Assembly (NCBI RefSeq): GCF_000421605.1
Contig: NZ_ATXI01000003.1
Location: 62,001-126,000 of the forward strand
Direction: 5' to 3'
Length of the DNA: 64,000 nucleotides
From: Thermodesulfobacterium thermophilum DSM 1276
GTDB taxonomy: Bacteria > Desulfobacterota > Thermodesulfobacteria > Thermodesulfobacteriales > Thermodesulfobacteriaceae
Shown here piece by piece: positions 48,740-64,000 of this stretch (within the stretch, counting starts at the first letter, position 1; each line of letters starts with the position of its first letter). The notes below the pieces were generated by a model, which ran no database searches, had not been told where the DNA came from, and saw only the letters and a list, made by a program, of their open reading frames with translations. A program made the translations under genes and the position numbers.

Positions 48740-48875
48740 CTTCTATCAACCACATCTAATCCACTTTAACTTTTGAAGTATAGTTTTAATTTTACACTTA
48801 AATTGATTAAAAATTTAATAAACATCTTGATATCATACAATCAAATGATAAAATGATAGCATAATCATAAAATCA

Positions 48876-48925
48876 ACCTAAAAATAAAAGAAATGAAATT
48901 ACCTAAAAATAAAAGAAATGAAATT
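48876..48925. repeat. Perfect 25-bp tandem duplication covering the start of the NERD gene
   Basis: The 25 bases at 48876-48900 are repeated exactly at 48901-48925. Each copy contains ATG (48893 and 48918); only the second is in frame with the NERD protein because 25 is not a multiple of 3. A recent duplication by slippage is likely. Confidence 0.85.
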
Positions 48926-49661
48926 TTATATAATTACCTCACATTTAAAAGACCAGATTGAAGTAAACCAAAAGATTGTTGACAGGTATTTTTGGTACAT
49001 TTTACTTTCATTAACAGGTATCCCCATAGGAATATTTTTAGGTAATACTTTTTCTAACTTTACAATAACCTTTTTAATATGTTCTATTTCCATCTTATTA
49101 AGTCTTTTTTTCCTCTTAAAACGAAATATATTAGCAAACATAAAAAATATACATGAACATGGGTTTTTAGGAGAAAATCAATTAAAGGATTATCTTTTAA
49201 AAACCTTTAATGACGATTACACTGCATTTTTTGGAATTCCGTTAAACAATTTAGGAGATATCGATTGTTTTCTGGTAGGCCCCAAAGGGGCGTTTATCAT
49301 AGAAGCTAAAAATCATAAAGGATTTATCAGATATACCGAAGGAGGCTGGGATCATATTAAAGTTGGAAGGAAAGGAACAACCTACCGAGGGAATATAGGT
49401 AACATTTCAGCTCAGATTTCCAAACAGCTCAATCACATAAAACACGAAGTCCCAACTTTGTCAAACGTATACGTTCATAAAATTATCTGTTTTACCAACC
49501 CTGAGGTAGAACTGATAGTTGAAAAAGAACCAAAAAATTTAACGGTATGCAAATTGGAAAATCTTAAGGACTGCATATTAAACAGTAAAAGTCATTTGAA
49601 AGAAAACGAGGTTAAAAGAATAGTTGACGAGATAAAAAATTACTGTGGAATAGAAAAGTAA
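48918..49661 (+). CDS. NERD-domain membrane protein (nuclease-related)
   Basis: 247 residues. Two membrane helices (about 26-44 and 47-68) precede a NERD domain. The PD-(D/E)xK-like site is LGDIDCFLVGPKGAFIIEAK (residues about 112-131), with D and E-x-K in place. NERD proteins are found in plasmids, defence loci and stress genes; their action on nucleic acid is inferred. It lacks a Shine-Dalgarno and stands at the left edge of the accessory region, on the strand opposite to the secreted-protein genes. Confidence 0.8.
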   Translation: MKFYIITSHLKDQIEVNQKIVDRYFWYILLSLTGIPIGIFLGNTFSNFTITFLICSISILLSLFFLLKRNILANIKNIHEHGFLGENQLKDYLLKTFNDDYTAFFGIPLNNLGDIDCFLVGPKGAFIIEAKNHKGFIRYTEGGWDHIKVGRKGTTYRGNIGNISAQISKQLNHIKHEVPTLSNVYVHKIICFTNPEVELIVEKEPKNLTVCKLENLKDCILNSKSHLKENEVKRIVDEIKNYCGIEK

Positions 49662-49785
49662 AAACCGCGGGAGGGAGTGTTTATTTAATTATAATTTGGG
49701 TAAGAAGTCCCATCCTAAAATTAGCTATTTTTTTCTTTCAACCCTGAAAACCTCTATAAACCTCTCTATTTTTGTTTATTCGTAG
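49662..49785. other. Spacer between NERD gene and the secreted-protein operon
   Basis: 124 bases, convergent 3' ends. No convincing terminator hairpin was seen; a T-run at about 49727-49737 is the only terminator-like element on the plus strand. Confidence 0.4.
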
Positions 49786-50010
49786 CTAATTACATTTTTC
49801 TTCATATTGAGCGCAGACTTTATACAGCGCACATATTTGCCTGTCAGGAAAAACAGGATCTGGACGACAATCTCTTCTTTCTTCCCATTTAATACATACT
49901 TTTTCACACTTTTTGCCGTTAGAACCACTGGTTTTGTTGTACTGATTGTCCTCTGCCCAACCAAAGTTACTTACTAAAACAAAGGAAAGGATAAACAAAA
50001 AGTTTCTCAT
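49786..50010 (-). CDS. Small secreted six-cysteine protein, paralogue 1
   Basis: 74 residues. Signal peptide of about 19 residues ending GWA, then a mature chain of about 55. Cysteine pattern C-x3-C-x8-C-x11-C-x5-C-x6-C, with the shared CIKWEERRDC and CAQYEEKC pieces. Start ATG 50010 has a near-perfect AGGAGGTGAG site. Three more copies of this pattern lie at 52875, 53168 and 59211. Likely disulfide-bonded and exported. I know of no described family; function unknown. Confidence 0.8.
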   Translation of the reverse strand: MRNFLFILSFVLVSNFGWAEDNQYNKTSGSNGKKCEKVCIKWEERRDCRPDPVFPDRQICALYKVCAQYEEKCN

Positions 50011-50059
50011 AGCTCACCTCCTGCAAATTTTTTAATCACATACTTCCTAAGTTTTTTTT

Positions 50060-51652
50060 TTACTCTAATCCACCGATTTCTATCTCCTCGGGTGCCTCTA
50101 TAGAAAATTTAACCTTAAAGGTCTTCTTTTCTCCTGGATTTAATTTTAATTCCCACTGAATAATTCCATCTTCTCCTATCTTTGCCTCTCCTTCTTTTGG
50201 AAGCTCTCTAATAACTTTTATCTTTTCGTTCCTTGATACAGGAAACTGATCTTTGAGATTAATATTTATACCTGTCTTTTTGCCATTTGTTATGATTATT
50301 TCATACTCATAGTTTATTCTTTTTTCCTTAGAAAGTATGCCTGTGTATTCTGTAAATTTCTTCACAAGTTTTCTTTCGATTTTTATTGATTCATCTATTC
50401 CAAGGCTTAAATCCATATTCTCATCCGGAAGTATCTGTTTTCTTATATTTATTCTGTTCACAAATCTTCCATCTACAAATATATTTACAATTCCTGAAGT
50501 GATCGGATATGACAGAGGGTTTTTAAAACTTCCATTAAGATAGGCGTATGAAGAAAGTTTGGGTACTGCTGAGTAATTTAAAATGATATCACTTGTTGCT
50601 GTTGTTATTACTATAGAATGAGGTTTTCCGTCTGATGGAACAGTGAGCTTTTTTGGAAATATAAACGTGAAAGAGCTTACTTCTTCCCTTACCTCTGGCT
50701 CTGGCTCTTTTTCCTCAAGAAATTCTTCAGGGCTTATAGCTTTCGTTTTCAATTTTTTATAAACCACAGGAGGTCTTGGTGTATACACATCAATATACCA
50801 TGGATAAAGCTCTGGCAAGGGTCCGTGGTGAGGTTTTGCCGTTGAGATTTCTAACTCGACATTCTTCCAGTCTTCTTGAGCGTTCTGGGCTATCTCTGCA
50901 AGGTTTACAACATCAACTTTCTTTGTTTTACTATCTATTCTCAATTCGTATTTTGGTTTCCAGCCTGCATTTTCAACCATGTATGAAAGCTCAAGAGTTA
51001 ATTCTTTTGGACTGTTTGAAGTAAAAATAACAGTAACCACCTTGCTAAAATCACCAGATTTTCTTAACTGAGATAGTTCCTTTTCAATCATTGCCTTTTC
51101 TTCATTCAGTTTCTTTATTGTTTTTTCTAATTTTGATACCCTATCAAGTCTCTCTTTTAAACTTCTTTCAAGATATTTTGCAAAGCTTTCTACTTCTGCT
51201 TCATTAGTTTTTAAGTTTTGAGAAAAGGGTGTAGATTTTTTAATAAATTCAATAGATGTCTTTAAAATCTCAAGATCATCTTGATTTTTGGTTATTGTTT
51301 CTTCTAACTCTTCTATTTTTTTCTCCAGACTCTTTATCTTTCCCTGAATAACTTTCCTTAGATAAGTTTTTTCAATCTTTACATCAAGTATCTTTATGCC
51401 TTTCTCATCTTTCGTTGAAATATTAACTGATTCATCAACTAAGTCTCCTGGAAGATCATAAATATTTAAAACATTTTCTCCGACCTGAGCTTTAAATCTA
51501 AGTTCTTTTTTGACAATAGCACCCTGTGGGTAAATGATTACTTTTCTTATAGTTGCCTCAGGCGTAATCTCAGAAGAATTGGCTTTTACCATTGCTATTA
51601 ACAAAATCAGCCATGTCAGAAGTATTAAATGGAAAAATCTATCACCCTTCAT
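50060..51652 (-). CDS. Secreted coiled-coil protein, DUF4139/MuiA-like
   Basis: 530 residues. Signal peptide (about 1-25), a DUF4140-like beta domain (VIIYPQGAIVKKEL), a long coiled coil at about 105-205, then a beta-rich DUF4139 domain (LELSYMVENAGWKPKYELRI near residue 225 and EISTAKPHHGPLPELYPW near residue 275). The mucoidy-inhibitor A family has this plan; its biochemical role is unknown. It lies between the first Cys-rich gene and the membrane protein gene in one transcription direction. Confidence 0.78.
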   Translation of the reverse strand: MKGDRFFHLILLTWLILLIAMVKANSSEITPEATIRKVIIYPQGAIVKKELRFKAQVGENVLNIYDLPGDLVDESVNISTKDEKGIKILDVKIEKTYLRKVIQGKIKSLEKKIEELEETITKNQDDLEILKTSIEFIKKSTPFSQNLKTNEAEVESFAKYLERSLKERLDRVSKLEKTIKKLNEEKAMIEKELSQLRKSGDFSKVVTVIFTSNSPKELTLELSYMVENAGWKPKYELRIDSKTKKVDVVNLAEIAQNAQEDWKNVELEISTAKPHHGPLPELYPWYIDVYTPRPPVVYKKLKTKAISPEEFLEEKEPEPEVREEVSSFTFIFPKKLTVPSDGKPHSIVITTATSDIILNYSAVPKLSSYAYLNGSFKNPLSYPITSGIVNIFVDGRFVNRINIRKQILPDENMDLSLGIDESIKIERKLVKKFTEYTGILSKEKRINYEYEIIITNGKKTGININLKDQFPVSRNEKIKVIRELPKEGEAKIGEDGIIQWELKLNPGEKKTFKVKFSIEAPEEIEIGGLE

Positions 51653-51666
51653 AACAAACCTCCTCC

Positions 51667-52521
51667 TTAATGTCTCTCTTTCATCCGAAGGACAATAGAT
51701 TTAATCACCAAAAGCAGAATTAATGGTGGAGCAAACAATATATTTGATATTAAAAAGGGTATAAGCATTAAAGACGTGAGAGCATCTAAAGTGTGAGGAA
51801 TTTCATAAATGCCAGATATCTTTTTTAAGACTATAAAGCTTAACTTTATACCCAATATTACACCTGGAATCGTAGCAGTAATAAACCACATCCATGCTAA
51901 AATCTTTATTGCTTTTGTTAGTTTATCTACTTTGCCAGATTCTTTAATGTTAATCTTTTTAAGTCTTTTTCTTTCTTTTTCTAAAGTTAGTGTTTTTAGT
52001 TCACGACCTTCTCCGTGTTGAAGTTTTAGATCAACGGTCAGGACTATCCAGATTATGAAAAAGGCAATCTGTTCTGGAATATCGTTTTTTATTTCAAGGG
52101 TCCATTGTCTTAAGCTGAAAAGTGCTTTTATCTTGTGTATAAATCCTTCAGGCCATTTTCGTGGTTCTTTTTTTATCTTTCCTATTAGCTCACCATTTTC
52201 AAATATAGAGTCATTATTTTTAACAAAACCAATTTCTAATTTTATTTCTCTACCATCAAACTCTATGAAATAATTGTATCCTATCTGAAATCCATCCGGT
52301 CTCTTTACCTCATACACTGTGCCATCGGGACATTCCATCCATAAATTAATGTTAATATCTCCTCCTACAAGATATTTTGCCCCTTCAGAGGTTACTATGG
52401 TGTCGTAGTCTGAGGCACTTTGAGTTATCTGAGCCAATTTTGAACCATCCGGAGAAAGAACCTCATAGGTGCGAGAAAAGAAACTTCTTTTTATGGGAAT
52501 TATTCTGTAGAAACTTTTCAT
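51667..52521 (-). CDS. Unrecognised membrane protein with beta-rich N-domain
   Basis: 284 residues. No signal peptide. Residues 1-125 form a beta-rich cytosolic domain (YEVLSPDGSKLAQI, EVKRPDGFQIGYNYFIEF) that loosely resembles tubby/LURP-one-type domains. Membrane helices occur at about 147-165, 205-228 and 245-275. Overlap with none; 14 bases before the DUF4139 gene and 2 bases after the Pro-rich gene. It may be the membrane anchor of the secreted system, but that is inference. Confidence 0.55.
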   Translation of the reverse strand: MKSFYRIIPIKRSFFSRTYEVLSPDGSKLAQITQSASDYDTIVTSEGAKYLVGGDININLWMECPDGTVYEVKRPDGFQIGYNYFIEFDGREIKLEIGFVKNNDSIFENGELIGKIKKEPRKWPEGFIHKIKALFSLRQWTLEIKNDIPEQIAFFIIWIVLTVDLKLQHGEGRELKTLTLEKERKRLKKINIKESGKVDKLTKAIKILAWMWFITATIPGVILGIKLSFIVLKKISGIYEIPHTLDALTSLMLIPFLISNILFAPPLILLLVIKSIVLRMKERH

Positions 52522-52523
52522 AA

Positions 52524-52820
52524 CTAATCTTCAGGTTGTTCGTGATGAGGATTCACGGTATCAAAGGGTGGCACTGGAGGCTTAGGAAGTCTCTGTCTAT
52601 CTCTATCTTCTTGCTTATCTGGCTTAGGTCTAGGACGTTCACGATCCTTTTTGTCATGTTTGTCATAGGATTGATCTCTTTCAGGATTTTCAGGCAGAAT
52701 AGAACTTATAAAAATTTGACTATTGGTTGTAGTGTCTCGCACTTGACTGAAAGAAGCCTGTGACTGACCTCCTAAAAACAACCAGGCAATAATAAAAACA
52801 CACAGTATTGAATATTTCAT
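52524..52820 (-). CDS. Small secreted proline/charge-rich protein
   Basis: 98 residues. Signal peptide of about 22 residues (ending SQA), then a low-complexity chain rich in Asp, Lys, Arg and Pro (RERPRPKPDKQEDRDRQRLP), probably disordered. ATG 52820 is preceded by AGGAGGTGAG, the same ribosome site as other island genes. Not recognised. A surface linker or partner role is possible. Confidence 0.6.
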   Translation of the reverse strand: MKYSILCVFIIAWLFLGGQSQASFSQVRDTTTNSQIFISSILPENPERDQSYDKHDKKDRERPRPKPDKQEDRDRQRLPKPPVPPFDTVNPHHEQPED

Positions 52821-52874
52821 AACTCACCTCCTGGGTTTTTTAAATTATAATAACACTCTACTGACTAAACTTAT

Positions 52875-53129
52875 TTAAGGTCTACACACCTCTACATACT
52901 TAACACATTCTCTATATATAGTGCAAATTTGTTCTCCAGGACAACATGGATTGGATTTACACTCTTTCTTTGGAGGTCCATATTCAACACACACCTTTAC
53001 TATCTCTTCGCATTCCTTCTTAGACTCAGAAGTTTTGTTATCAGATTCCGAGGCAGACAAAATTCCATTACTAACAACTAAAATAAACGAGTTTACTAAA
53101 AGAAAAAATAAAAAAAGAAATTTTTTCAT
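52875..53129 (-). CDS. Small secreted six-cysteine protein, paralogue 2
   Basis: 84 residues from ATG 53129 (AGGAGGG seven bases upstream; an upstream ATG at 53159 lacks one). Signal peptide about 25 residues. Cysteine pattern C-x6-C-x9-C-x11-C-x5-C-x6-C, with an extra CC pair inside the x11 loop, so this is the most divergent copy. Shares CTIYREC and CVKYVEVC with paralogue 1. Confidence 0.75.
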   Translation of the reverse strand: MKKFLFLFFLLVNSFILVVSNGILSASESDNKTSESKKECEEIVKVCVEYGPPKKECKSNPCCPGEQICTIYRECVKYVEVCRP

Positions 53130-53167
53130 AACCTTCCCTCCTAAAGTATCAGACTTCATTCCAATTT

Positions 53168-53422
53168 TTATTCTGACTTTTTGTCTGATCCATTTTTATC
53201 GGACTTAAGCATCGGTTCCTTACATCTTTTTTCGTATCTTTTACATACAGTGCGAAGCTCACAAATCTTAGACTCACTATCAGGACCAACTATTTTACAC
53301 TCTTCCTTTGTTTCCCACTCTACACATTCTGTTTTACAGTCTACTTCTGCAACAACAATACTACTAAATAGTGTTAAAGTTATACAGAAAAACAAAACTT
53401 TAAGAAGAATCATTTTCATCAT
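53168..53422 (-). CDS. Small secreted six-cysteine protein, paralogue 3
   Basis: 84 residues from ATG 53422 (GGAGGTGAT directly upstream; 53419 is a second possible start). Signal peptide ends near VVA. Pattern C-x3-C-x8-C-x11-C-x5-C-x6-C: CKTECVEWETKEEC, KIVGPDSESKIC, CELRTVC, CKRYEKRC. The KIVGPDSE loop is shared with paralogue 4 at 59211, its closest relative. An acidic/basic tail (LKSDKNGSDKKSE) follows the last cysteine. Confidence 0.78.
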   Translation of the reverse strand: MMKMILLKVLFFCITLTLFSSIVVAEVDCKTECVEWETKEECKIVGPDSESKICELRTVCKRYEKRCKEPMLKSDKNGSDKKSE

Positions 53423-53530
53423 ATCACCTCCCAAATTTTTACTTTCTAAGTTTTTTACTTTAATCTCCTGATTTTCATTTCTTACAATAAGATTCAACTT
53501 ATCCTTTCTAAAGTATTAATTTAGTGTAAC

Positions 53531-55435
53531 TCATAAAGCAGTCTTTTTAAATCTAACTTCATTTAAAAGCTGCCTATAAACTGCATTTCTGGTTTTTAAA
53601 AGTTGCTCTGGTAGTCGGTTGTAAAACTTCTTGGCAAGCTCTATCTGTCCGGCCTTAGAATAAACTACAATCCTTACAAGCGAGAAAAGATTATCCTGGT
53701 AGTTTGACTCTAATTTTTTCAATATCTCAATAGCTTCTTTGTGTCTTCCTTTATCACAATATAAAAGCGACATTGCCATACAAGCAAGTGGATTCTCTGG
53801 ATTTAATTCGTAAGATTTAACGGCATAGTTTTCAAACTCCTGAGAATTACCTGTTATTCTTAAAATGATTGCTTTAAAACCTAAAGCTTCGGAAGCTTCT
53901 GGAGATGTTAAAACCTCAGGTTTGATTTCTAAATCTCTCAGTTCAGAAGAGTTCCCGGATTGGATAGTAATTTTGACTATCTCATTCCCTTGTATATATT
54001 TAGTAACCTTATCTAACATGTTTCCTTCTTGTCTATAAAGTCGCAAGTCTCTGTTATCAATATTTATTATCTTGTCTCGAGGTTTCAAACCTGCCTTTTC
54101 TGCTGGAGAGTTCCTATAAACACGAATAATCTCTGGATAGATTTCACCCTGTATAACCTCTGCTCCTATACCATTGTTGGTAAAACCTGAAATAATGTCA
54201 TCCAAGATTTCAAAGGCTTTTTTATATTCTCCTTTACCGGCATAAGTAAAGGCAATGTGAATCTTCTCTAAAGGATTCGCTTCTGTTAGAGGAGCAATAG
54301 TGTCTATTAAAGCCTTCGCTTCATTAAACCGCTCAAGCATGTTGAGACTATGTAAAATTTCTATCTGATAAGGTAAAGCAGAAACATCACACATCGTTGC
54401 CTTATCCTCTCCCCAAAATCTCAGTGAAAAATACTCACACCTCTCTCTAACATGCTCTAAAACTTTTTTAAAATAAAATATTGCCTTCCTATAATCATTT
54501 TTAAATTCAGCTATTTTTCCGAGAATGTAATAAGCTTCGTATAAATCTATTCCAAAAACATCAGGATCAAATATTAATGCTGTTTCTGCAAAGGCTTTTG
54601 CTTTATCATACTTTTTTTCGTATAAGTAAATTTTTGCAAGTGATAAATAGTGAGAGGGATTGTAAGGAGAATTTTTTATTTGATGAAATAAAATATTTTT
54701 TGCCTTTTCATATTGACCTGTTGCCATATAAAAAAGTAAAAGGTCACTATAATCAGGATTTTCAGAAACTTCAATTGCTTTTTTGAATGCCTTTTCTGCT
54801 TTATCTAAATCTAATCTGGAGAAGTACTTCTTTCCAAGATTGTCTAAATCAGCTACATTCTTTTGCTTAGCATGAATTTCAAGAACCTCATCAAAACTAT
54901 ACCTACACCCATCACTTGCTGGTGGGGTTTCAGCATAACAGAAAAATTCGTGAGAAGCACCTCCAAAGCCGTCAAAAACTACAAATGTTCTGTGAGGCAT
55001 TTCAAGACCGAGTTTTTTAGCTACTTGTTTTATAGTTGGATAAAGAGGATAATCCGGAGTAAGTAAAGGAGAAATTTTAGCACGATAAAACCTGATCACG
55101 AATGTTTGATAATTTAGCACATCAGTGCCTTCAGTGTCAGGATTACGACATTCAATAACAAAAAGATCGTTCTTTTCAATATTACCATTTTCAACAAGCC
55201 TTCTCGTTTCTTGATAGGTAATTGTCCTGTTATTGACCTTTAATTTCAGGTTTTCTGGGACACAATTATTCAAAACGAATTCCACGGTATTGTCTTTTTT
55301 TATAGCATACTGAATTTCACCATTCACCAGGTCCGTTCTTGTTTCTATGCAGGTGTATTTTTCCTGAGCATATGCAAAATTTAACAAAGATAAAAAAATA
55401 ACTAATATAAGAAAAAGTTTCGCACTTTTTCTCAT
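53531..55435 (-). CDS. Secreted TPR protein with a central PDZ domain
   Basis: 634 residues. Signal peptide 1-23 (ending AYA). An N-terminal unknown domain (about 25-190) includes FVVFDGFGGASHEFFCYA. TPR repeats follow (about 195-440), then a PDZ domain (about 445-535) with VYRNSPAEKAGLKPRDKIINI, then more TPR-like helices. No protease triad is visible, so the PDZ probably serves binding. Likely a scaffold in the periplasm or on the surface for the small proteins of this operon. Confidence 0.78.
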   Translation of the reverse strand: MRKSAKLFLILVIFLSLLNFAYAQEKYTCIETRTDLVNGEIQYAIKKDNTVEFVLNNCVPENLKLKVNNRTITYQETRRLVENGNIEKNDLFVIECRNPDTEGTDVLNYQTFVIRFYRAKISPLLTPDYPLYPTIKQVAKKLGLEMPHRTFVVFDGFGGASHEFFCYAETPPASDGCRYSFDEVLEIHAKQKNVADLDNLGKKYFSRLDLDKAEKAFKKAIEVSENPDYSDLLLFYMATGQYEKAKNILFHQIKNSPYNPSHYLSLAKIYLYEKKYDKAKAFAETALIFDPDVFGIDLYEAYYILGKIAEFKNDYRKAIFYFKKVLEHVRERCEYFSLRFWGEDKATMCDVSALPYQIEILHSLNMLERFNEAKALIDTIAPLTEANPLEKIHIAFTYAGKGEYKKAFEILDDIISGFTNNGIGAEVIQGEIYPEIIRVYRNSPAEKAGLKPRDKIINIDNRDLRLYRQEGNMLDKVTKYIQGNEIVKITIQSGNSSELRDLEIKPEVLTSPEASEALGFKAIILRITGNSQEFENYAVKSYELNPENPLACMAMSLLYCDKGRHKEAIEILKKLESNYQDNLFSLVRIVVYSKAGQIELAKKFYNRLPEQLLKTRNAVYRQLLNEVRFKKTAL

Positions 55436-55493
55436 TTTAGCCCCTTTTTCTTATCTTTTTAATTAGACTGTTTTAATTCCAATTAAAATTACT

Positions 55494-57491
55494 TTATCGT
55501 ATGTTTTCTTCATCTACCCTTTCAACCGAATCAACGTAAACATAATAATTTCCTATTGGTCCAAAATATTCTCTTTTATAGACAAGATAAAGTTTTAGTT
55601 TGTATTTTCCTGATTGTAATATGCTTAAATCATCTCCCTCTATTCCTGCGATATGATAAAATGGTCCAGACTTGGTCATTCCAACTACTTCAAGAACAGA
55701 TCCATAGTCATAAGGTTTAGTTACTACCACCTCAACTTCTCTTTCAACAGGTGGCATCAGTGGACCAAATTTAGATACTTCAATGGGATTGCTTGAACTC
55801 TGTCCATCGTGAGTTAGCTTGTAATCCGTTGTTCCCATGTTTTCAAATCGCTTTAACTCATTCTCTAAATAGGCAATTTTTTGTTGTTTATCAGGATGCT
55901 GCGATGCTTTATATCTCTTTATCTCCATTTTTATAGCTCTTATTGTGGCATCTATAAGTCTTTTTTTCAAAAGCTCTGTCCCAAGATCAACTTTAATGCT
56001 AATGTTTATAGGTCCTGTGTGTTGATAAAGGTTAGAAAATATAAAGAATGGTTCATCTCTAACCATCGGAATAACAAGATTTTTTATCTCTACTGTATAT
56101 GGCATCTGGAAACCAAATTCTTTCTGAAGGTCGTAAACTAAGACTGTTCCCTCAGGCAATAAAGCTTTACAGTTATCAGGTTCTGTCCTTTTAAACACTA
56201 TCTGATAGGTTGGAACTTGATTGTCAATTTTGTAAATTCTATTTACTTCAGCTTTGACAGAATTTTTATCTGTGCAGCCTTTAGTGTTTACTGTTATGGC
56301 TATTTTGTGTTCTTTAACCTCAACTGCTCTTAATACCAGTATTCCTGTATCCGTAGCCAGAAAGGAGTACTCAGGCTTCATTTTAATGTCCGAATTTACG
56401 GGATCTTTGGAAATTCCTCCCCATTCAACTGCGGTAAAACCCTTTCTTTTAATAGGTTGTATTTTTGGTGGTTTGATATCCCTGTATTCATCCACCGCTT
56501 CAAAGTAAAGAATAACCCTGATGACTGTCTGAGGCTCTGGTATGATGCTGAGTTTCAGGTTTTTTTCTAAAAATTCTCTATCAACCATTTTGATGATATA
56601 GTACCTTGCAGGTGATAAAGCTTTTATCCAGTAATCCTTAAAATCTTTAATTTCTCTTTCTTTCAGTCCCATCTGTGGAAGATATTCATCAAACCAGTTT
56701 TCAAGGTTACAATACGGAACGATCCATCCTTCATCAGGCAGTTTAATGGTCTCTTCAAGCTGGGCTTCATAAAAAAGATAGTCATATTTCCCATCGATTT
56801 TACCATCAGGCGTAACCCTAACCTCCCAGCCAGTTTTATATTCTGGAATACTATCTGTAATGGTTCCTTTAATATTCAGATCAACTTTTATTCTGGTTGG
56901 TTTTTCAGGGTAAAGATATATAGCAGGTTTTTTAACTACCGGTGCCTCTTCACACTGGATAAGCTCAATTCCATCAAAAGTAAAACAAAGAAGTTCTTTC
57001 TTAGATGGACAGCAAGACGGATCACTTTCTTTGTGGGTTAACATATCAAGAAGAATTTCTAATCTCATTGTAGGAAAAATTGGTCTATTTACCACTTCGA
57101 TGTTTTCTATTTTTAATCTATCACCTAAAACGATAGATTTTGTTTGAAAAACAGTGTCATCAGCTTTAGAAATCAAGGCTGTTAACTCATAGAAAATTCC
57201 ACTTCCACCACCAGACTGACCAAGAACAACCACTGCATCAGGTATACTATCTCCGTTCAGATCTTTAATCAGAAATTTTTCAACCCAAACTTTCAGGTAA
57301 TCAGGAAAGGGTTGTTCGTATTTACCATCTTTTAAGGTAACAGTACGGTTTCCAAAGGTTAAACGATAAGTAAAATTGTTAACTAAATCACTATCAATTT
57401 TTTTATGACTTGCAATAGAAGAGTTAACGTTAAAAAAAGTGAGAAACAAAAGGATTATGAATGTAATTAAAGATAAAGAGCTCGATCTCAT
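55494..57491 (-). CDS. Large secreted protein with FG-GAP-like calcium loop and KPxIYLYP domain
   Basis: 665 residues. Signal peptide about 1-27. A DLNGDSIPD loop (77-85) resembles the calcium loops of FG-GAP/VCBS proteins. Residues from 188 begin KPAIYLYPEKPTRIKVDL, a motif I recall from conserved uncharacterised bacterial secreted proteins. The last 270 residues are beta-rich. Cysteines at 160, 161, 169 and 180 could pair. No enzyme motif was seen. ATG 57491 follows a GAGAGG ribosome site. Confidence 0.6.
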   Translation of the reverse strand: MRSSSLSLITFIILLFLTFFNVNSSIASHKKIDSDLVNNFTYRLTFGNRTVTLKDGKYEQPFPDYLKVWVEKFLIKDLNGDSIPDAVVVLGQSGGGSGIFYELTALISKADDTVFQTKSIVLGDRLKIENIEVVNRPIFPTMRLEILLDMLTHKESDPSCCPSKKELLCFTFDGIELIQCEEAPVVKKPAIYLYPEKPTRIKVDLNIKGTITDSIPEYKTGWEVRVTPDGKIDGKYDYLFYEAQLEETIKLPDEGWIVPYCNLENWFDEYLPQMGLKEREIKDFKDYWIKALSPARYYIIKMVDREFLEKNLKLSIIPEPQTVIRVILYFEAVDEYRDIKPPKIQPIKRKGFTAVEWGGISKDPVNSDIKMKPEYSFLATDTGILVLRAVEVKEHKIAITVNTKGCTDKNSVKAEVNRIYKIDNQVPTYQIVFKRTEPDNCKALLPEGTVLVYDLQKEFGFQMPYTVEIKNLVIPMVRDEPFFIFSNLYQHTGPINISIKVDLGTELLKKRLIDATIRAIKMEIKRYKASQHPDKQQKIAYLENELKRFENMGTTDYKLTHDGQSSSNPIEVSKFGPLMPPVEREVEVVVTKPYDYGSVLEVVGMTKSGPFYHIAGIEGDDLSILQSGKYKLKLYLVYKREYFGPIGNYYVYVDSVERVDEENIR

Positions 57492-57516
57492 GTTTACAAA
57501 CCTCTCAAATTTTTAA

Positions 57517-58569
57517 TCAATCTATGCAAATGTTTCTACAAGCTTCAACCGAATCAAAAGGTACCACATCATCACATCCACCATAAAAAAATTTTTCACA
57601 CTTATCTAAACCAGGTATAAAATATGCTCCCCAGAATAGTCCTTTACAGGGGCCCACTTGAGGTATTAAATAACATCTCTTTTTAATATCTATTTTTTTT
57701 CCTTGAGTTCTTTCCAAAGTTTCTTTTAAAAACAAAGCTATATTTTTTCTTCCTTTAAAAACGCAAAAGTCTAAATCCTTTTCTGTCGGAACATTACCTT
57801 TTTCAACAAGTAATTTAACAAGTTTTACCGAATCACTGTTAGTACAAACATAACTAATCGATTTTTCTTGTAATACATTAACACCTTTTCTTATTAAAAT
57901 ATCTACTATATCTTCATAGCCCTTTATTAAAGCTTTTTCCAATGTTTTTTCATTAACTGGTACACCCCAATTAATTAACATCAAACCTACTTTTTTGTGG
58001 CCTCTACTTAAAAATTCATTTAAAGTTTCTACATCGATGTTTTCTTTAACCTTAAATCCTTTTTGTACGCAAAGATTAAAAATTTCCATAATCTTTGAAT
58101 CTAAAGTTTCTGGATAAAAGACAAAATTATATAAAGGTATTTTCCCATAACCATCTTTGTAAACACAATCAGCCTTGTTTTGAATAAGAAAAGAAATGGT
58201 AGTTATGTCTCGTGCATAAAGTATTGCCTGATGTAAAGGAGTTTCTCCTATATTGTTGGGTGTATTGATATCTATCCCTTTTTCTAATAAAAGTCTAATG
58301 ATTTCTTTATAATTTTTCCTGACCGCATAGTGAAGTAAAGTATCTCCGTATTTATCTCGAATGTTTAGATCTTCTTGCTTTAATATATATTCTTTCATCC
58401 TCTCAGGATCTTCAGAAATCTCTTTTAATTCAGCAGTTATTGAATTTAACAATTTTTCGTAAAGATCGGCTGGAGCAGAGAATGATCGTATACTATGTAA
58501 AAGGAGAAGAAAAAAAGTTAGCAACAAAACTTGATAAATCCAAACTTTGTTATCAATAGAATTTTTCAC
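57517..58569 (-). CDS. Secreted ankyrin-repeat protein with C-terminal Kunitz/BPTI domain
   Basis: 350 residues, GTG start at 58569 with GAGGTC upstream. N-terminal signal/anchor helix (about 11-27), ankyrin repeats from about 70 (YGDTLLHYAVRKNYKEII, GETPLHQAI), then a Kunitz domain at 299-348. Its six cysteines are spaced 8, 15, 7, 11 and 3 apart, against 8, 15, 7, 12 and 3 in BPTI; GPCK and FYGGC are identical to the family hallmarks. The reactive P1 residue would be Lys, predicting inhibition of trypsin-like proteases. Confidence 0.85.
   Translation of the reverse strand: MKNSIDNKVWIYQVLLLTFFLLLLHSIRSFSAPADLYEKLLNSITAELKEISEDPERMKEYILKQEDLNIRDKYGDTLLHYAVRKNYKEIIRLLLEKGIDINTPNNIGETPLHQAILYARDITTISFLIQNKADCVYKDGYGKIPLYNFVFYPETLDSKIMEIFNLCVQKGFKVKENIDVETLNEFLSRGHKKVGLMLINWGVPVNEKTLEKALIKGYEDIVDILIRKGVNVLQEKSISYVCTNSDSVKLVKLLVEKGNVPTEKDLDFCVFKGRKNIALFLKETLERTQGKKIDIKKRCYLIPQVGPCKGLFWGAYFIPGLDKCEKFFYGGCDDVVPFDSVEACRNICID
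57526..57675 (-). other. Kunitz/BPTI inhibitor domain region
   Basis: Part of the preceding protein (residues 299-348). Segments CYLIPQVGPC, KGLFWGAYFIPGLDKC, EKFFYGGC, DDVVPFDSVEAC and RNIC give all six disulfide cysteines and the Lys P1 position after the second cysteine. Expected disulfides are 1-6, 2-4 and 3-5. Confidence 0.85.
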
Positions 58570-58604
58570 ATTTTTTGACCTCTATCTTTTCAATTAAATT
58601 TTTG

Positions 58605-58901
58605 TTACTTTAACTCTTTATCAATTTGAGGAGTAGGTGTTGGTATGTATTCCATTCCTCCTCCGCTTAAGTTTGAAGGCCTTGAGGTATCAAAGCCCTG
58701 CCCTGCCTGGTATCTCGATCTTTCCCAAGAACTATTTAGGTCTTTATAATTTCCAGGATGTGCTGAATCTTTTTCTGCTTGCCAGGAACTACCGGAAGTC
58801 CCTGAAGCCTGATCATAAGCAGAATCTTTAGCTATACAAACCCCAGATGATAAAAATACTACTACTCCTGCTAAACCAACCAAAAGTTTCAAGTTTTTCA
58901 T
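58605..58901 (-). CDS. Small secreted Ser/Gly-rich protein
   Basis: 98 residues. Signal peptide about 24 residues (ending CIA). The mature chain is polar and has no cysteine: SAYDQASGTSGSSWQAEKD and GGGMEYIPTPTPQ. ATG 58901 has an AAGGGGGTGGG site. Probably disordered and exported; not recognised. 35 bases upstream of the ankyrin-Kunitz gene. Confidence 0.6.
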   Translation of the reverse strand: MKNLKLLVGLAGVVVFLSSGVCIAKDSAYDQASGTSGSSWQAEKDSAHPGNYKDLNSSWERSRYQAGQGFDTSRPSNLSGGGMEYIPTPTPQIDKELK

Positions 58902-58924
58902 AACCCACCCCCTTAAATTTAAGG

Positions 58925-59191
58925 TTATTTACCGTGACCATACTGGCCTTTACGGTTAATATTAGGAACACTATATTTTGGCGAACCTCTAAGTCTTTCC
59001 TTGAAATCTTTGTTTTGGGTATCTGTATTTTTTGAGGAACTTGTTGAAGTATTGATTTCATAATTATTCGAAGATACCGTACTTGTTGAACTACTAACCG
59101 ATTGATTTGAATCGTTGGTAGCTTTAAGGTCTTTTATTAAAAATATACATATTAACAAACAAAAATTTAAAATAAAACTCTTTTTTTTCAT
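58925..59191 (-). CDS. Small secreted Ser/Thr/Asn-rich protein
   Basis: 88 residues from ATG 59191, chosen because AGGAGG lies just upstream and the following residues (MKKKSFILNFCLLICIFLI) are a signal peptide; an earlier ATG at 59299 would overlap paralogue 4 and lacks a ribosome site. The mature part is Ser/Thr/Asn-rich (SVSSSTSTVSSNNYEINTS) with a basic C-terminus. Function unknown. Confidence 0.55.
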   Translation of the reverse strand: MKKKSFILNFCLLICIFLIKDLKATNDSNQSVSSSTSTVSSNNYEINTSTSSSKNTDTQNKDFKERLRGSPKYSVPNINRKGQYGHGK

Positions 59192-59210
59192 CGTTAACCT
59201 CCTGCAAATT

Positions 59211-59501
59211 TTATAATATAGGCCCTTCCTCACATATTGTGTCATATTTTTTACATACAGGACGTAGAACGCAGGTTTTAGCTTCGCTATCAGGTCCAAC
59301 TATTTTACATTCCTCCTCTGTCCCCCATACTACACATACCTTTTTACAATGCATTTTTGTTTTTTGGTGATGATCTTTATGATTATCAGACTTATCCATG
59401 TCAGGCATCGGTCTTTCTTCAGCCATGCTGGCACTTCCACTAAGAAACACTAAAATAAAAGAAACCAAACAAAATAGAATTAAAAAAAACACCTTATTCA
59501 T
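59211..59501 (-). CDS. Small secreted six-cysteine protein, paralogue 4 (first gene of the island operon)
   Basis: 96 residues. Signal peptide about 27 residues (ending SMA), a His/Asp-rich linker (NHKDHHQKTKMH), then the C-x3-C-x8-C-x11-C-x5-C-x6-C core (CKKVCVVWGTEEEC, KIVGPDSEAKTC, CVLRPVC, CKKYDTIC). It shares the KIVGPDSE loop with paralogue 3. The His/Asp linker could bind metal. It is promoter-proximal in the operon. Confidence 0.8.
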   Translation of the reverse strand: MNKVFFLILFCLVSFILVFLSGSASMAEERPMPDMDKSDNHKDHHQKTKMHCKKVCVVWGTEEECKIVGPDSEAKTCVLRPVCKKYDTICEEGPIL

Positions 59502-59561
59502 AGTCTTACCTTCTATTTAAAAGAATTTTTAATTTATTAGTTAATTCCTATTAAAAATAAA

Positions 59562-59587
59562 ATTATATAATCTTTTTTTCTTGTCAA
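59562..59587 (-). promoter_or_regulatory. Putative promoter of the secreted-protein operon
   Basis: Minus-strand perfect TTGACA (59587-59582) and perfect TATAAT (59567-59562) but with a short 14-base spacer. The leader to ATG 59501 would be about 55 bases. The same short spacing occurs at the speD promoter, so a spacer-tolerant or activated promoter is possible. Confidence 0.5.
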
Positions 59588-60194
59588 TAGATAAAAATTT
59601 TTTTAATTTATATTTACTGTCGAGCATCCCCCTTTTGTTTTTCAATATAGATAGATATAAAATTTTTACCCACAAAAACTTTGTTTTGTTTTTGACCTTT
59701 TTGGATACACTATAAACTTTTAACCTATATAAAATGATTTTTTATTGTCTGACGGACTAAGAACAGAAGTTGCAATCAATATAGCTTAATCTTTGGAATC
59801 AACTACCAGTATTCACAAAAAATCCATAATAAATTTAACCTTCTTCAGAAAGCAAACAAGCTCTTATAAATTCTTTTAGAGAGACAAAGTGCTTAAGATT
59901 ACACGACTAAAAAACCTTTACCACTATAAATTCAACAAACAGAAAAGACGGTGTTGAAGATATTCTGGAAGACATTATAGAATACTGCCTTTTAGAGTTT
60001 TATTATCGTCAAAAAGAATCGCAGGCAAAGGCTAATTAGCTTAAGCATAGATTTAATTAGGCTTTCAGGCAAAAAGGGCAGGCAATTTTTATTACCTGAA
60101 GATTACCTGCAAATGCAGGCAAAAAGGATACGAAATTCCACTAAATTCCGTGAAAGGGATTTCTTAAAACCTTTGAAAAATCTTAAAAACCAAG

Positions 60195-60238
60195 CGCGCC
60201 CGGCAGGACTCGAACCTGCAACCTTTGGATTCGTAGTC
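60195..60238 (-). other. 3' half of tRNA-Arg(ACG): probable displaced attachment site
   Basis: On the minus strand the bases from 60238 down to 60195 form tRNA-Arg positions about 30-73: anticodon loop CTACGAA (anticodon ACG at 60234-60232), a 3' anticodon arm TCCAA, T arm GCAGG-TTCGAGT-CCTGC (60219-60203), acceptor strand CGGGCGC and discriminator G (60195). No CCA is encoded. The 5' half is missing; preceding bases do not pair with TCCAA beyond two pairs. This is the footprint left when an element integrates into a tRNA gene. Confidence 0.8.
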
Positions 60239-60301
60239 GGGTTTTTTCTCATTTTTTCTTTAATTTTCTCACTTTTTCTTCAATTTTTGATTGACAAAAA
60301 T

Positions 60302-60550
60302 TTAAAACGCTCTTTTATTGAATTTTTTGAGCTCCCCCGCTGGGATTAAAATTTTATTTCCTAATTTTGTGCTTGCAAGCTTGCCTTGTTTTACATATTT
60401 CCAAATTGTCTGAGGGTGCAGCCCGACAAGACTTGCAAATTCTGTTATCGTGTAAGCTTCCCTTTCTTTAGCCTCTTCTTTCACTACACGCTCAAACTCA
60501 TCAAGCAGATCTCTCATTATTTCAATCATCTCAATAAGCTTTTCTTTCAC
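60302..60550 (-). CDS. Excisionase-like helix-turn-helix protein
   Basis: 82 residues from GTG 60550 (GGAGGG six bases upstream). An N-terminal helix is followed by a MerR/excisionase-type winged helix: YTITEFASLVGLHPQTIWKYV and KLGNKILIPAGELKKF. It faces the tRNA fragment 60 bases away, as element xis genes often do. It could be an excisionase or a small repressor. No integrase is in the window. Confidence 0.75.
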   Translation of the reverse strand: MKEKLIEMIEIMRDLLDEFERVVKEEAKEREAYTITEFASLVGLHPQTIWKYVKQGKLASTKLGNKILIPAGELKKFNKRAF

Positions 60551-60640
60551 TTCTTACCCTCCCCTTTTTTACATTTATTAACCTTGACAATTTTTAAAAA
60601 TGTATTAGTTTTCAAAATTAAGATATGTTTTACTTTTCCG

Positions 60641-60725
60641 ACCTGCTCCTTTGAGGGGCAGGTACCCCTTTTAGGGGTTAGCCGATTTCGGCTTAGTCCC
60701 TAATTGATAGGGACAGCGAAATCGG
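60641..60725 (+). other. Cluster of four hairpins with a larger alternative stem
   Basis: Hairpin 1: ACCTGC/GCAGGT (60641-60663). Hairpin 2: ACCCC/GGGGT (60664-60678). Hairpin 3: AGCCG/CGGCT (60680-60693). Hairpin 4: GTCCCTA/TAGGGAC (60696-60714). CCGATTTCG (60682-60690) can instead pair with CGAAATCGG (60717-60725), enclosing hairpin 4. It may be a structured RNA, a single-strand origin or a nicking-site element. Confidence 0.6.
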
Positions 60726-60865
60726 AGCGTCCAGATTAGAAAGTTTTAAAAAGCAGTGTTTTAAAGTGTAAGTCAAGTAAAAAAATTAAAAAAGTCAAAA
60801 AATTAAAAAAAGTTAGAAGTCAAGAAAGTTAAATAAAGTCAAGTAGTCTCAAAAGTCTTAAAGTC

Positions 60866-60989
60866 TTAAAAATTTTCAAAAATCTCAAAAATTCAACTTC
60901 TCAAATCTTCAAAAATTCTCTGTAAAAATCCCCCCCCAAAAAAGTTTTATAAAACAAAAAAAAGAAAAAAGTTTAAAAATTTTCAAAAA
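60866..60989. repeat. Pair of 17-bp direct repeats in AT-rich DNA
   Basis: TTAAAAATTTTCAAAAA occurs exactly at 60866-60882 and 60973-60989, 107 bases apart. Short A-tract repeats fill the area, so chance is possible; an iteron or unwinding role is speculative. Confidence 0.35.
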
Positions 60990-61124
60990 GACTCAAAATC
61001 CTGAAAAAGCTCAAATTTTTCAGTTATTACCTCTTCAATATTTTAAAAATCTTTTCAAAAATCCTTAAACCCCCAAAAAAAGCATAAAAAAACGCTATTT
61101 TCTTAAATTACTGAAAGCTAAGTC

Positions 61125-61154
61125 CCGCGGGTTTAATTACAACCCGCGGTTTTT
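61125..61154 (+). terminator. Inverted repeat with T-run, first of two terminator-like hairpins
   Basis: CCGCGGGTT (61125-61133), 7-base loop, AACCCGCGG (61141-61149), then TTTTT: a perfect 9-bp GC-rich stem, a strong intrinsic terminator on the plus strand. Confidence 0.7.
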
Positions 61155-61156
61155 AC

Positions 61157-61178
61157 GGGGCTTCCCCCTTTTTTTTTT
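61157..61178 (+). terminator. Second terminator-like hairpin with long T-run
   Basis: GGGG (61157-61160), CTT loop, CCCC (61164-61167), one C and ten T. It lies just upstream of the 61235 gene, so it ends a plus-strand transcript arising in the hairpin region or attenuates read-through into the operon. Confidence 0.6.
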
Positions 61179-61234
61179 ATGAGTTGTTACTGCACACACA
61201 TTTAATATTTAAAAAACTTTAAAAGGGGGGACAA

Positions 61235-61654
61235 ATGAACCCGACCCCGCAACAGCTAAATTGGAATCTTATCTACAATTTTTCAGAGCATATAATAAAA
61301 AAACGCTTCTGGGACAGTCGCTATGAAGTAAAAGACATCGTTCAAGAGTTTCTTTTGTATCTTCTTGGAGTAATCAAAAAAAACCCTTCTCCCTGGTTTG
61401 AAGTTTCTAAAAAAACTTCTCTCATTTACAAAAGAATTTCCTGGGAGTTCTCAAAGTTTATCACACGCTATGACTATACTCATTTGCAGTCCCTCATCAC
61501 CCCCGGGTGGCACGAAAAAAACGGAAAAAACGGAAAAAACGGAAAAAACAACAAAGGACAGCTCAAGTTTTTTGACACAGAAGAAAAAAAAGAAGTGTTC
61601 TGCATTGTGAGCTTTGAAGACTTTAAAAAACAAGATAAGGGGGAGAAACTATGA
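61235..61654 (+). CDS. Unknown element protein, weakly sigma-factor-like
   Basis: 139 residues, ATG 61235 after AAAAGGGGGG. Residues 30-75 (YEVKDIVQEFLLYLLGVI) faintly resemble region 2 of ECF sigma factors, but region 4 is absent. Three 9-bp repeats (61522-61548) encode a GKN tract. Its stop overlaps the next start by 4 bases (ATGA), so it is coupled to the primase-like gene. Confidence 0.55.
   Translation: MNPTPQQLNWNLIYNFSEHIIKKRFWDSRYEVKDIVQEFLLYLLGVIKKNPSPWFEVSKKTSLIYKRISWEFSKFITRYDYTHLQSLITPGWHEKNGKNGKNGKNNKGQLKFFDTEEKKEVFCIVSFEDFKKQDKGEKL
61522..61548 (+). repeat. Three tandem 9-bp repeats inside the 61235 gene
   Basis: CGGAAAAAA is repeated three times at 61522-61530, 61531-61539 and 61540-61548, giving a short Gly-Lys-Asn tract. 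In-frame slippage can change its length. Confidence 0.8.
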
Positions 61655-63579
61655 TAATAAAAGAAAAAAATAATACAATCAATTCAATTCTTTCAGAAAT
61701 GTATATTAACACTTTCACAGAAAGCATTAATACAGTCTTCAAAACTTTTTTCTCAACTGAGCTTGAAGAAGACGAATACATTGAAGTAGTCTTTGACAGT
61801 GCTGATAAGCAGTTTAACAAAGCAAAACACGTAAAAACTTTTGAAGAGTTTCTCTTTCTTGTGAAAAGTCTTGACAAAAAGTTTAACGTGACATTTTGTC
61901 CTGCAGTGAGAAAAATTACAGAAGACAAAAAAAACAGAAGAACAGGGTTAGAAAACATTTCAAGAGTAAAAGGCATTGTTCTTGATGTAGAGAAGAAAAA
62001 CGATCACAACACGAAAAAAGAAAGCACAGAAGTCATTAAACTTATAGACTCAGTTTACAGTCAGCTCCCTGATGAGTTGAAACAAGCTGTTTTCTATACC
62101 GCCTACACCGGGGGCGGAGGGCAGATAGCAATCGTTTTCAACCGCTTTCTTGACAGAGAAAAAGCAAAAGAAGTTTACGAGAAACTGAAAGAATATCTTT
62201 CGCATGTTGAAAACGTTGACTTGATGAGTTTCAACATTGCTGGCTGTCAAAGGCTGATTGGGACTACAAACTTGAAATATGATGTGCAGAGCTTTCTTCT
62301 CTGGAAAAATCCCAGGGTGGTTCCTATTGACATTGAAACGTTTTTGAAAGGTGCTGAAGAATCAGAAAATGCAGTAAACGAACTTTCTGTTGAAGTTGAA
62401 AAAGCAACTGAAAAGCAAGTAGTTTTTCATAGAATAGACAAAGACTGCATTGACGAAATCAAAAGAAGAGTATCGTTTGCAAGCATTTTTGACGAAATCG
62501 GAGTGCAGTATAAAAGATATGCCCACTACCTTTCTGTAATTTGCCCCTTCCATTCCGAAAGGCACCCTTCTTTCGTAGTTTTTTTCTCAAATTCCTATCG
62601 GGACTGGGAGCTTGCTGTTGATTATCACGACAATGAAAGATACGACATCATAAGCTTTGTACAAAAATACTACGACATAAGCTTTTCAAAAGCTATTGAA
62701 ATGCTTGCCGAAAAAGCGGGCATAAAAGTAAAAAAACTTAGAGGAAGACCTAAAAAAGAGGAAGAGGGAGAAGAAGAGGAAAAAATAACAGATGCGAGAG
62801 AGTTTTTTAGCATTCTTGGCGTTGAAAAAATTCTTAGATACGTTGAAGAAGAAGAGCATCACTACGAATTTCACTTTCAGGACAAGGATGGGATGAGACA
62901 CGTTTTGAAGATGGCGTTCATAGACCTAATGTATGATGCCAAAAAATTTTTAACTGCATGGGGGGCAAAAAGCGGAATTTCCCCCATTGTAGCCCTGAAT
63001 GGTGTAAAGTATTCATGGAGAGATATACTAAGCAGTCTTGACGAAATAGCCGAGAAGCACGAATACTTCTACAGAGCCTCAGAAAAAGAACTTCTTGCCG
63101 AAGAGCTAAGACAATTCATCATCTCTCAACCTTTTACTGATGACCTTGATGGAATTACTATGCAAAACGCTGCGGCACTCAAATATGTAGAAGAGGAGAA
63201 AGTCTATATCTCTCTCACTTCTCTTGCAACAAAAATCCGCTACCTTGCACCCCATTTACCTGCAAGTATCAAAAAACTTGTTGAACTTCTGCAATACTTA
63301 GGGTGCAGAAACAAAAGATTGAAAAAAGGGGAAAAAAAATACAGATTGTGGGAGCTTCCTGGGAACCCAGAAGATTGGAGAGTGCCTGCAAAAACAAAGA
63401 CAGAGCAGCCTGAAATAAAATCTGAGGCTGTTGAAGAAAAAGAAGAAAAAAGGGTGTCTGAAACCAAAGAAAGAAAAGGAGAAAAGAAAGAAGAGGAAAG
63501 AATAGTAAAAGACTTCTGGGACTGGAGCAAAGTTCAGGAGGAGATTGAATCGGTGAAAGAATCCGAAATCCCTTTTTAG
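61651..63579 (+). CDS. Primase-like protein: archaeo-eukaryotic primase-like N-half and degenerate CHC2 zinc-finger region
   Basis: 642 residues. The N-half has features of AEP/PrimPol primases: D112-x-E114 in GIVLDVEKK, TGGGGQIAIVFNR near 153-165 and CQRLIGTTNLKYD near 200-211. Residues 275-365 align with the DnaG zinc-finger region (CPFHSERHPSFVV at 298-310, then IISFVQKYYDISFSKAIEMLAEKAGI), but the FKCFGC pair is replaced by VDYHD near 323-327, so zinc binding is doubtful. The tail is charged. Likely the element's replication initiator or primase. Confidence 0.65.
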   Translation: MIIKEKNNTINSILSEMYINTFTESINTVFKTFFSTELEEDEYIEVVFDSADKQFNKAKHVKTFEEFLFLVKSLDKKFNVTFCPAVRKITEDKKNRRTGLENISRVKGIVLDVEKKNDHNTKKESTEVIKLIDSVYSQLPDELKQAVFYTAYTGGGGQIAIVFNRFLDREKAKEVYEKLKEYLSHVENVDLMSFNIAGCQRLIGTTNLKYDVQSFLLWKNPRVVPIDIETFLKGAEESENAVNELSVEVEKATEKQVVFHRIDKDCIDEIKRRVSFASIFDEIGVQYKRYAHYLSVICPFHSERHPSFVVFFSNSYRDWELAVDYHDNERYDIISFVQKYYDISFSKAIEMLAEKAGIKVKKLRGRPKKEEEGEEEEKITDAREFFSILGVEKILRYVEEEEHHYEFHFQDKDGMRHVLKMAFIDLMYDAKKFLTAWGAKSGISPIVALNGVKYSWRDILSSLDEIAEKHEYFYRASEKELLAEELRQFIISQPFTDDLDGITMQNAAALKYVEEEKVYISLTSLATKIRYLAPHLPASIKKLVELLQYLGCRNKRLKKGEKKYRLWELPGNPEDWRVPAKTKTEQPEIKSEAVEEKEEKRVSETKERKGEKKEEERIVKDFWDWSKVQEEIESVKESEIPF

Positions 63580-63589
63580 GAGGTGAGCT

Positions 63590-64000
63590 ATGGGCAAGGT
63601 AATAAAGATCTTTGGCCCCCCGGGGACAGGAAAAACAACCTCAATTGTTTCTCTTTTAAAAAAGCTTATTGCAAGAAAGGAAATTAGAGAAAAAAGCGTT
63701 TACGCTGTCTCCCTTACAAAAGCAACGAAGTATGCCTTTCTCAAAAAGTGCAGAGATGAAGGAATCGAAATCCCCCCCGCAAACGTGAGAACCCTTCACA
63801 GTTTTGCTTACAAAAAACTTAAAGAAGAGGGTGAAAAAGTGAAATTAATTAAAGCGGAGGAACTCAAAGAATTTTTCAGGGAAAAAGGCTTTGAGTTTGA
63901 GATTGGAGAACTGGACGAAGAAAACTCATATTCACAATCTGAATATTCAGACCTTCCAGGGAATCGGGCTTTTGCGGGTTTTCAAAAACTGAGACTTACC
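63590..64000 (+). CDS. UvrD/PcrA-like superfamily 1 helicase (3' end outside window)
   Basis: 137 visible residues, open to the window end. ATG 63590 follows AGGAGGTGAG. Walker A FGPPGTGKTTSI at residues 8-19, motif Ia-like VSLTKATKYAFL, and NVRTLHSFAYKKL typical of UvrD-family helicases. With the primase-like gene 10 bases upstream it forms a replication module of the element. Confidence 0.85.
   Translation, partial: MGKVIKIFGPPGTGKTTSIVSLLKKLIARKEIREKSVYAVSLTKATKYAFLKKCRDEGIEIPPANVRTLHSFAYKKLKEEGEKVKLIKAEELKEFFREKGFEFEIGELDEENSYSQSEYSDLPGNRAFAGFQKLRLT

Follow-up and report, generated by a model that had tools for sequence, protein, structure and literature searches.

Exported six-cysteine proteins with a predicted hairpin core, encoded beside Kunitz and serpin genes in Thermodesulfobacterium: a candidate family of protease inhibitors

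Four genes for small exported proteins with a common arrangement of six cysteines were analysed in a 64,000-nucleotide stretch of Thermodesulfobacterium thermophilum DSM 1276 (contig NZ_ATXI01000003.1), referred to here as the window. The host, a heat-loving sulfate-reducing bacterium of hot springs, is close to T. hveragerdense DSM 12571, one of whose contigs carries three orthologues of these genes. Because the family is linked to genes of true protease inhibitors in the same genomic island, we tentatively propose, with a probability of roughly 40%, that its members are lineage-specific protease inhibitors built as a disulfide-stapled hairpin, with a reactive loop between the third and fourth of the six cysteines (C1 to C6).

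The six-cysteine genes and their relatives

The first-pass annotation had listed four reading frames without giving their strand. All of them were found, each on the minus strand and preceded by a ribosome-binding site that is GGAGG-like or weaker.

59211..59501, minus strand: six-cysteine exported protein, first gene of the putative operon; core C-x3-C-x8-C-x11-C-x5-C-x6-C, translated C-KKV-C-VVWGTEEE-C-KIVGPDSEAKT-C-VLRPV-C-KKYDTI-C
53168..53422, minus strand: six-cysteine exported protein with a Lys-rich C-terminal tail; core C-x3-C-x8-C-x11-C-x5-C-x6-C, translated C-KTE-C-VEWETKEE-C-KIVGPDSESKI-C-ELRTV-C-KRYEKR-C
52875..53129, minus strand: six-cysteine exported protein with spacing x6-x9-x11-x5-x6 and two additional loop cysteines; translated C-EEIVKV-C-VEYGPPKKE-C-KSNPCCPGEQI-C-TIYRE-C-VKYVEV-C
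49786..50010, minus strand: six-cysteine exported protein, last gene of the putative operon, of the type nearest to the single copies in genomes G004 and G010; translated C-EKV-C-IKWEERRD-C-RPDPVFPDRQI-C-ALYKV-C-AQYEEK-C

The spacing that had been described is exact in three of the four copies and deviates in the 52875 copy just as reported, and the shared residues C2-[VI]-x-[WY] and C5-x-x-Y were also confirmed. In the alignment of the family all six cysteines are invariant, while His is not conserved. The two extra cysteines of the 52875 copy lie within its x11 stretch (CKSNPCCPGEQIC); its T. hveragerdense orthologue has neither (CAPNPFRPGEQIC). In six-frame translation of the window the exact pattern occurs three times, compared to no occurrence in 200 first-order Markov windows. 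This difference, the mutual homology of the proteins and their conservation between species argue against a chance pattern. Homology among the four proteins is secure.

The family is under purifying selection, as the first-pass annotation had proposed. Between the host and T. hveragerdense, the ratio of nonsynonymous to synonymous substitution rates (dN/dS) ranges from 0.26 to 0.40 for the individual genes (0.40 for 59211, 0.39 for 53168) and is 0.32 when the four genes are pooled. Codons of the predicted strands gave 0.12 versus 0.70 for loop codons, values derived from 7 and 5 nonsynonymous changes, respectively, and no significance is claimed for the contrast.

Among 99 relatives, four copies are present in the host (G000), four and a decayed fifth in T. 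hveragerdense (G006), and one each in G004 and G010. Overall, the family was detected in four of 14 Thermodesulfobacterium genomes and, with exact spacing, in one genome of another, sister genus (G020). The orthologue of 59211 in T. hveragerdense is located at L028:12106-12390, that of 53168 is 91-92% identical, and the 49786 protein shares 53-54% of its residues with the G004 and G010 copies. The decayed fifth copy (L028:13045-13255) lies between the gene for a 98-residue protein and the Kunitz gene described below and is absent from the window. Copies of the family have been both gained and lost. Searching 395 genomes of the phylum revealed no convincing member beyond G000, G004, G010 and G020. 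Weak matches in G056, G120, G174 and G300 were discounted since they span just part of the core, and so was a second match in G010, which falls in a DnaE-like frame. No match to the family was obtained in plasmids, phages and viral contigs. A scan of all GTDB genomes was performed with one of the copies as query, which detects close relatives only; the profile searches stayed within the phylum.

The first-pass annotation knew of no described family with this pattern, and searches of family libraries and PDB sequences indeed returned no known family. There was no match above the curated cut-offs of Pfam and NCBIfam, no significant E-value in PHROGs for any of the four proteins, and no significant match to PDB sequences, where the best profile hit (E 0.16) was regarded as chance. 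Weak hits in the family scans reflected similarity of signal peptides, and Shiga-toxin B models at E 0.03-0.1 were rejected as chance. Classical knottin, Kazal and hirudin patterns were considered as well, and the spacing does not fit them. By sequence, the family is thus taken to be new relative to every library searched.

Predicted hairpin, export and oxidation

AlphaFold2 (AF2), applied with 11 natural sequences, predicted the core to be one long two-stranded antiparallel beta-hairpin, with strands at residues 15-31 and 39-55, a core predicted local distance difference test score (pLDDT) of about 97 and a predicted template modelling score (pTM) of 0.45. In the two family members modelled, core pLDDT was 95-97. 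A hairpin was predicted for the 52875 copy too; its strands are interrupted by the insertion, and C1 lies slightly beyond the strand. A Foldseek search of the PDB gave no match with E<1. In the register that follows from a symmetric turn (i+j=70), C1 is opposite C6, C3 opposite C4, C2 opposite Tyr and C5 opposite Trp. The spacing of cysteines and aromatic residues agrees with this register, being mirror-symmetric around the turn (C-3-C-2-W-5-C / C-5-C-2-Y-3-C). The odd set of spacings is explained by this symmetry, which would also imply disulfides C1-C6 at the base and C3-C4 at the tip of the modelled hairpin. C2 and C5 miss each other's register by three residues and, by strand parity, are on opposite faces. 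A bond between them within the hairpin was rejected for these reasons, not on coordinates, and they are likely to be free or bonded between chains. Since only the C1-C6 and C3-C4 pairs are in register, the six cysteines may not all be oxidised within a single chain.

Export, an inference in the first-pass annotation, is well supported by the signal peptides and by the neighbourhood of exported proteins, and appears secure from the sequences. By reading, the signal peptides end in A-x-A-like sites (WA/ED, VVA/EV, SAS/ES, SMA/EE). After cleavage the proteins would comprise about 50-70 residues, with cores of about 43 residues and a near-neutral net charge of -2 to +2. Oxidation of the cysteines is presumed. 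A genome search for disulfide-forming enzymes revealed no clear DsbA and a single candidate below the Pfam cut-off, a VKOR-like membrane protein with a thioredoxin-like tail (L045:889-1908).

Inhibitor genes and island context

Neither the inhibitor genes next to the family nor the island around them had been mentioned in the first-pass annotation. In the window, the gene at 57517-58569 specifies a protein with a C-terminal Kunitz domain (PF00014, 30.3 bits compared to a gathering score of 21) whose six cysteines are spaced 8-15-7-11-3; the G010 domain has 8-15-7-12-3. Ankyrin-Kunitz counterparts are located at L025:10996-12075 and L028:13293-14303. In all Kunitz domains P1 would be Lys (C-K-G; GPC-K-G in the window loop). 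A survey of 30 genomes from the taxonomic family found Kunitz domains only in G000, G006 and G010, and serpins only in G004 and in G029, which belongs to a sister genus; 14 control genomes had no Kunitz match. Both serpins are secreted. The G004 protein (L024:9060-10292; PF00079, 1.4e-128) is complete and has a signal peptide, and the G029 protein (L041:3-824; PF00079, 1.3e-86) is cut by a contig end. They share the hinge EEGTEAAAA and a probable P1-P1' of Lys-Ser. ExGTEAAAA is the hinge motif of inhibitory serpins (PMC8233489), and by motif and PF00079 match both are predicted to belong to this class.

The distribution of these genes follows that of the six-cysteine family. G000 and G006 each have a single Kunitz protein, specified within the same gene run as the six-cysteine genes; in G010 about 2 kb separate the sole Kunitz gene from the sole six-cysteine gene, and in G004 the genome's only serpin gene ends 37 bp upstream of the only six-cysteine gene on the same strand. 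Thus, all four family-bearing members of the genus have an inhibitor gene in the island of the six-cysteine genes: three a Kunitz gene, one a serpin gene. Presence of inhibitor and family coincides in 14 of 14 Thermodesulfobacterium genomes, both being found in four and neither in ten. These cases are not independent because the genes are linked within the island; yet G004 and G010 use unrelated inhibitors.

Twelve window genes follow one another on the minus strand between 59501 and 49786, none separated from the next by more than about 110 bp, and plausibly form a single operon. Nearly all products appear to be exported. Between and beside the six-cysteine genes are:

58925..59191, minus strand: small exported protein, homologue in T. 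hveragerdense only; start chosen by ribosome-binding site
58605..58901, minus strand: exported 98-residue protein with 59-61% identical homologues in the G004 and G010 islands; no Pfam family
57517..58569, minus strand: secreted protein with ankyrin repeats (matches to ankyrin families in Pfam) and, at its C terminus, a Kunitz/BPTI domain (PF00014 E=4.7e-7)
55494..57491, minus strand: exported 665-residue protein without Pfam family; homologues in the G004 and G010 islands (two on L024, and L025)
53531..55435, minus strand: exported TPR and PDZ protein; homologue L041_2665_4572 (E=5e-29) downstream of the G029 serpin
52524..52820, minus strand: small exported protein rich in Pro and charged residues; no Pfam family
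51667..52521, minus strand: membrane protein without family match in the Pfam scan
50060..51652, minus strand: MuiA-like exported protein with DUF4140/DUF4139 (TIGR02231 E=2.9e-100, PF13598 E=2.5e-60)
60180..60238, minus strand: 3' fragment of tRNA-Arg(ACG), island end at the integration hot spot

The intact tRNA-Arg gene is located on another contig adjoining a sirtuin gene. In G010 the junction sirtuin - tRNA-Arg(ACG) - dtd has no insert, the ends of tRNA and dtd being 91 bp apart; the junction contains sugar-metabolism cargo in G013 and harbors the six-cysteine island in G000 and G006. The tRNA-Arg(ACG)-dtd junction (48740-60238; L074; L075) is thus an integration hot spot with species-specific cargo; that of G013 includes, by reading, a trehalose/glycosyltransferase set. 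At the dtd end of the window island, a NERD-domain membrane protein is specified on the opposite strand (48918-49661). Past the tRNA fragment, a relaxase/primase-type element at the same tRNA (60239-64000, L049) has genes for an HTH_17 protein and a CHC2-type primase and, by reading, a UvrD-like helicase and a TraI-like relaxase. The G004 island adjoins a phage-type integrase and tRNA-Asp/Val. SIMPL (DUF541) proteins are specified near the six-cysteine gene in G004, G010 and G020 (L024:10453-11175, L025:5679-6401, L026:8177-8944).

Proposed function, alternatives and known systems

In the proposed mechanism, the C1-C6 and C3-C4 disulfides would staple the exported hairpin, with C2 and C5 facing Tyr and Trp, respectively. 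The variable working surface would be the loop of 11 residues, in most cases with Pro, that the C3-C4 bond closes; being rigid, it would be presented in a canonical manner to an extracytoplasmic protease that is trypsin-like and directed at Lys/Arg. Most loops carry Lys or Arg (RPDPVFPDRQI, QPDPVFPGKQI, KIVGPDSESKI, RYFSDPRIPPV). The proteins could act alongside the Kunitz or serpin inhibitors of their island, which is exchanged horizontally, and paralogues would differ in their loops; protease inhibition and target specificity are inferred. An extended version is rather doubtful: a new mirror-symmetric scaffold with a swappable C3-C4 loop, evolved in the Thermodesulfobacterium family, that would travel with serpin and Kunitz genes in mobile 'anti-protease' islands and whose hairpins may be joined covalently through C2 and C5, giving dimers or chains that display more than one reactive loop.

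A number of observations weigh against an inhibitory role. The AF2 alignment was shallow (11 sequences; pTM 0.45-0.48) and leaves C2 and C5 without a visible pairing partner, and the difference between loop and strand codons rests on 5 versus 7 changes, most of the loop changes coming from one gene pair. Lys and Arg are frequent throughout the proteins, the 52875 loop KSNPCCPGEQI has Glu at the position of Arg/Lys in the 49786 type, and none of the loops fits a canonical motif from the literature, for example the nine-residue Bowman-Birk binding loop CTP1SXPPXC (PMC7760496). The argument is one of association only, and island cargo moves together. No inhibitory function is known for most neighbours (the MuiA, TPR-PDZ, 665-residue and 98-residue proteins, and SIMPL in relatives), and G020 has a six-cysteine gene with no Kunitz or serpin gene found.

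The invariant cysteines C2 and C5, being off register on opposite faces in the AF2 register and requiring partners outside the hairpin, could instead indicate a structural or adhesive role, in which disulfide-linked dimers or polymers, together with the other exported products of the island, many of unassigned role, contribute to a surface layer. This is unlikely, as G004 and G010 pair their single gene with an inhibitor and not with more structural genes, and no repeat, anchor or secretion gene was seen. The recurrence of SIMPL near the family in three genomes, the MuiA protein in the window and the lack of inhibitors in G020 would fit accessory proteins tied to envelope functions instead of proteolysis, the inhibitor linkage resulting from shared island transfer. 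Passive cargo seems quite unlikely, however, because the inhibitors of the G004 and G010 islands are non-homologous and each is unique in its genome, which would not be expected from simple co-transfer of a single block. In a strictly anaerobic sulfate-reducing lineage with no clear DsbA and a VKOR-like match below threshold, the invariant cysteines, either C2 and C5 or all six, might bind metal or exchange thiols in the sulfidic habitat. We consider this improbable: CxxC and CxxCH redox or haem motifs are absent, His is variable, and cysteines spread over two strands with the outer pairs in cross-strand register fit disulfides better. Small size, export, cysteine staples, rapid turnover of paralogues including the decayed copy and a mobile island would also suit a secreted antagonistic peptide of the beta-hairpin antimicrobial or toxin-like type. 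This appears improbable as well because the mature charge is near neutral, unlike that of cationic hairpin antimicrobials; moreover, no immunity gene or dedicated exporter was evident, and PHROGs and NCBIfam gave no match to such a family.

The inhibitor proposal is directly testable with the single-copy gene beside the G004 serpin. If true, a minimal inhibitor scaffold from a thermophile would be available for loop grafting, and the findings would bear on the question why scattered free-living bacteria retain serpins and Kunitz domains, which here share exchangeable, tRNA-associated islands with exported orphan proteins.

Among known systems, the cystine-knot growth factors VEGF, PlGF and IL-17 were among the best Foldseek neighbours; their long beta-hairpins with cross-linking cysteines resemble the predicted fold, but all matches had E>1 and partial coverage, a generic hairpin similarity only. 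Tachyplesin- and protegrin-type antimicrobials have a two-stranded hairpin with ladder disulfides, but comprise about 17 residues and are strongly cationic. Serpins, encoded directly beside the family in G004, are globular suicide inhibitors of about 370 residues and unrelated in sequence. Kunitz/BPTI proteins also have six cysteines and are exported, and a genuine member with probable P1 Lys is encoded in the same putative operon; however, their spacing (8-15-7-12-3 versus 3-8-11-5-6) and fold differ, and the PF00014 profile did not match any of the four proteins. Bowman-Birk inhibitors have seven residues between the loop cysteines instead of 11; the C-x11-C loops lack T-P1-S, no Pfam Bowman-Birk match was obtained, the six cysteines are predicted to lie on two long strands, and no sequence homology was shown. 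Small size is common to them, the frog Bowman-Birk-like peptides and the six-cysteine proteins, and their loop, which contains Pro and is closed by a disulfide within a beta-hairpin, corresponds to what is predicted for the six-cysteine family. The G020 loop, ending in IPPVC, resembles that of SFTI-1, which ends in ...IPPIC. It may likewise be compared to the frog peptide OSTI, which has IPPKPC (PMC5408667).

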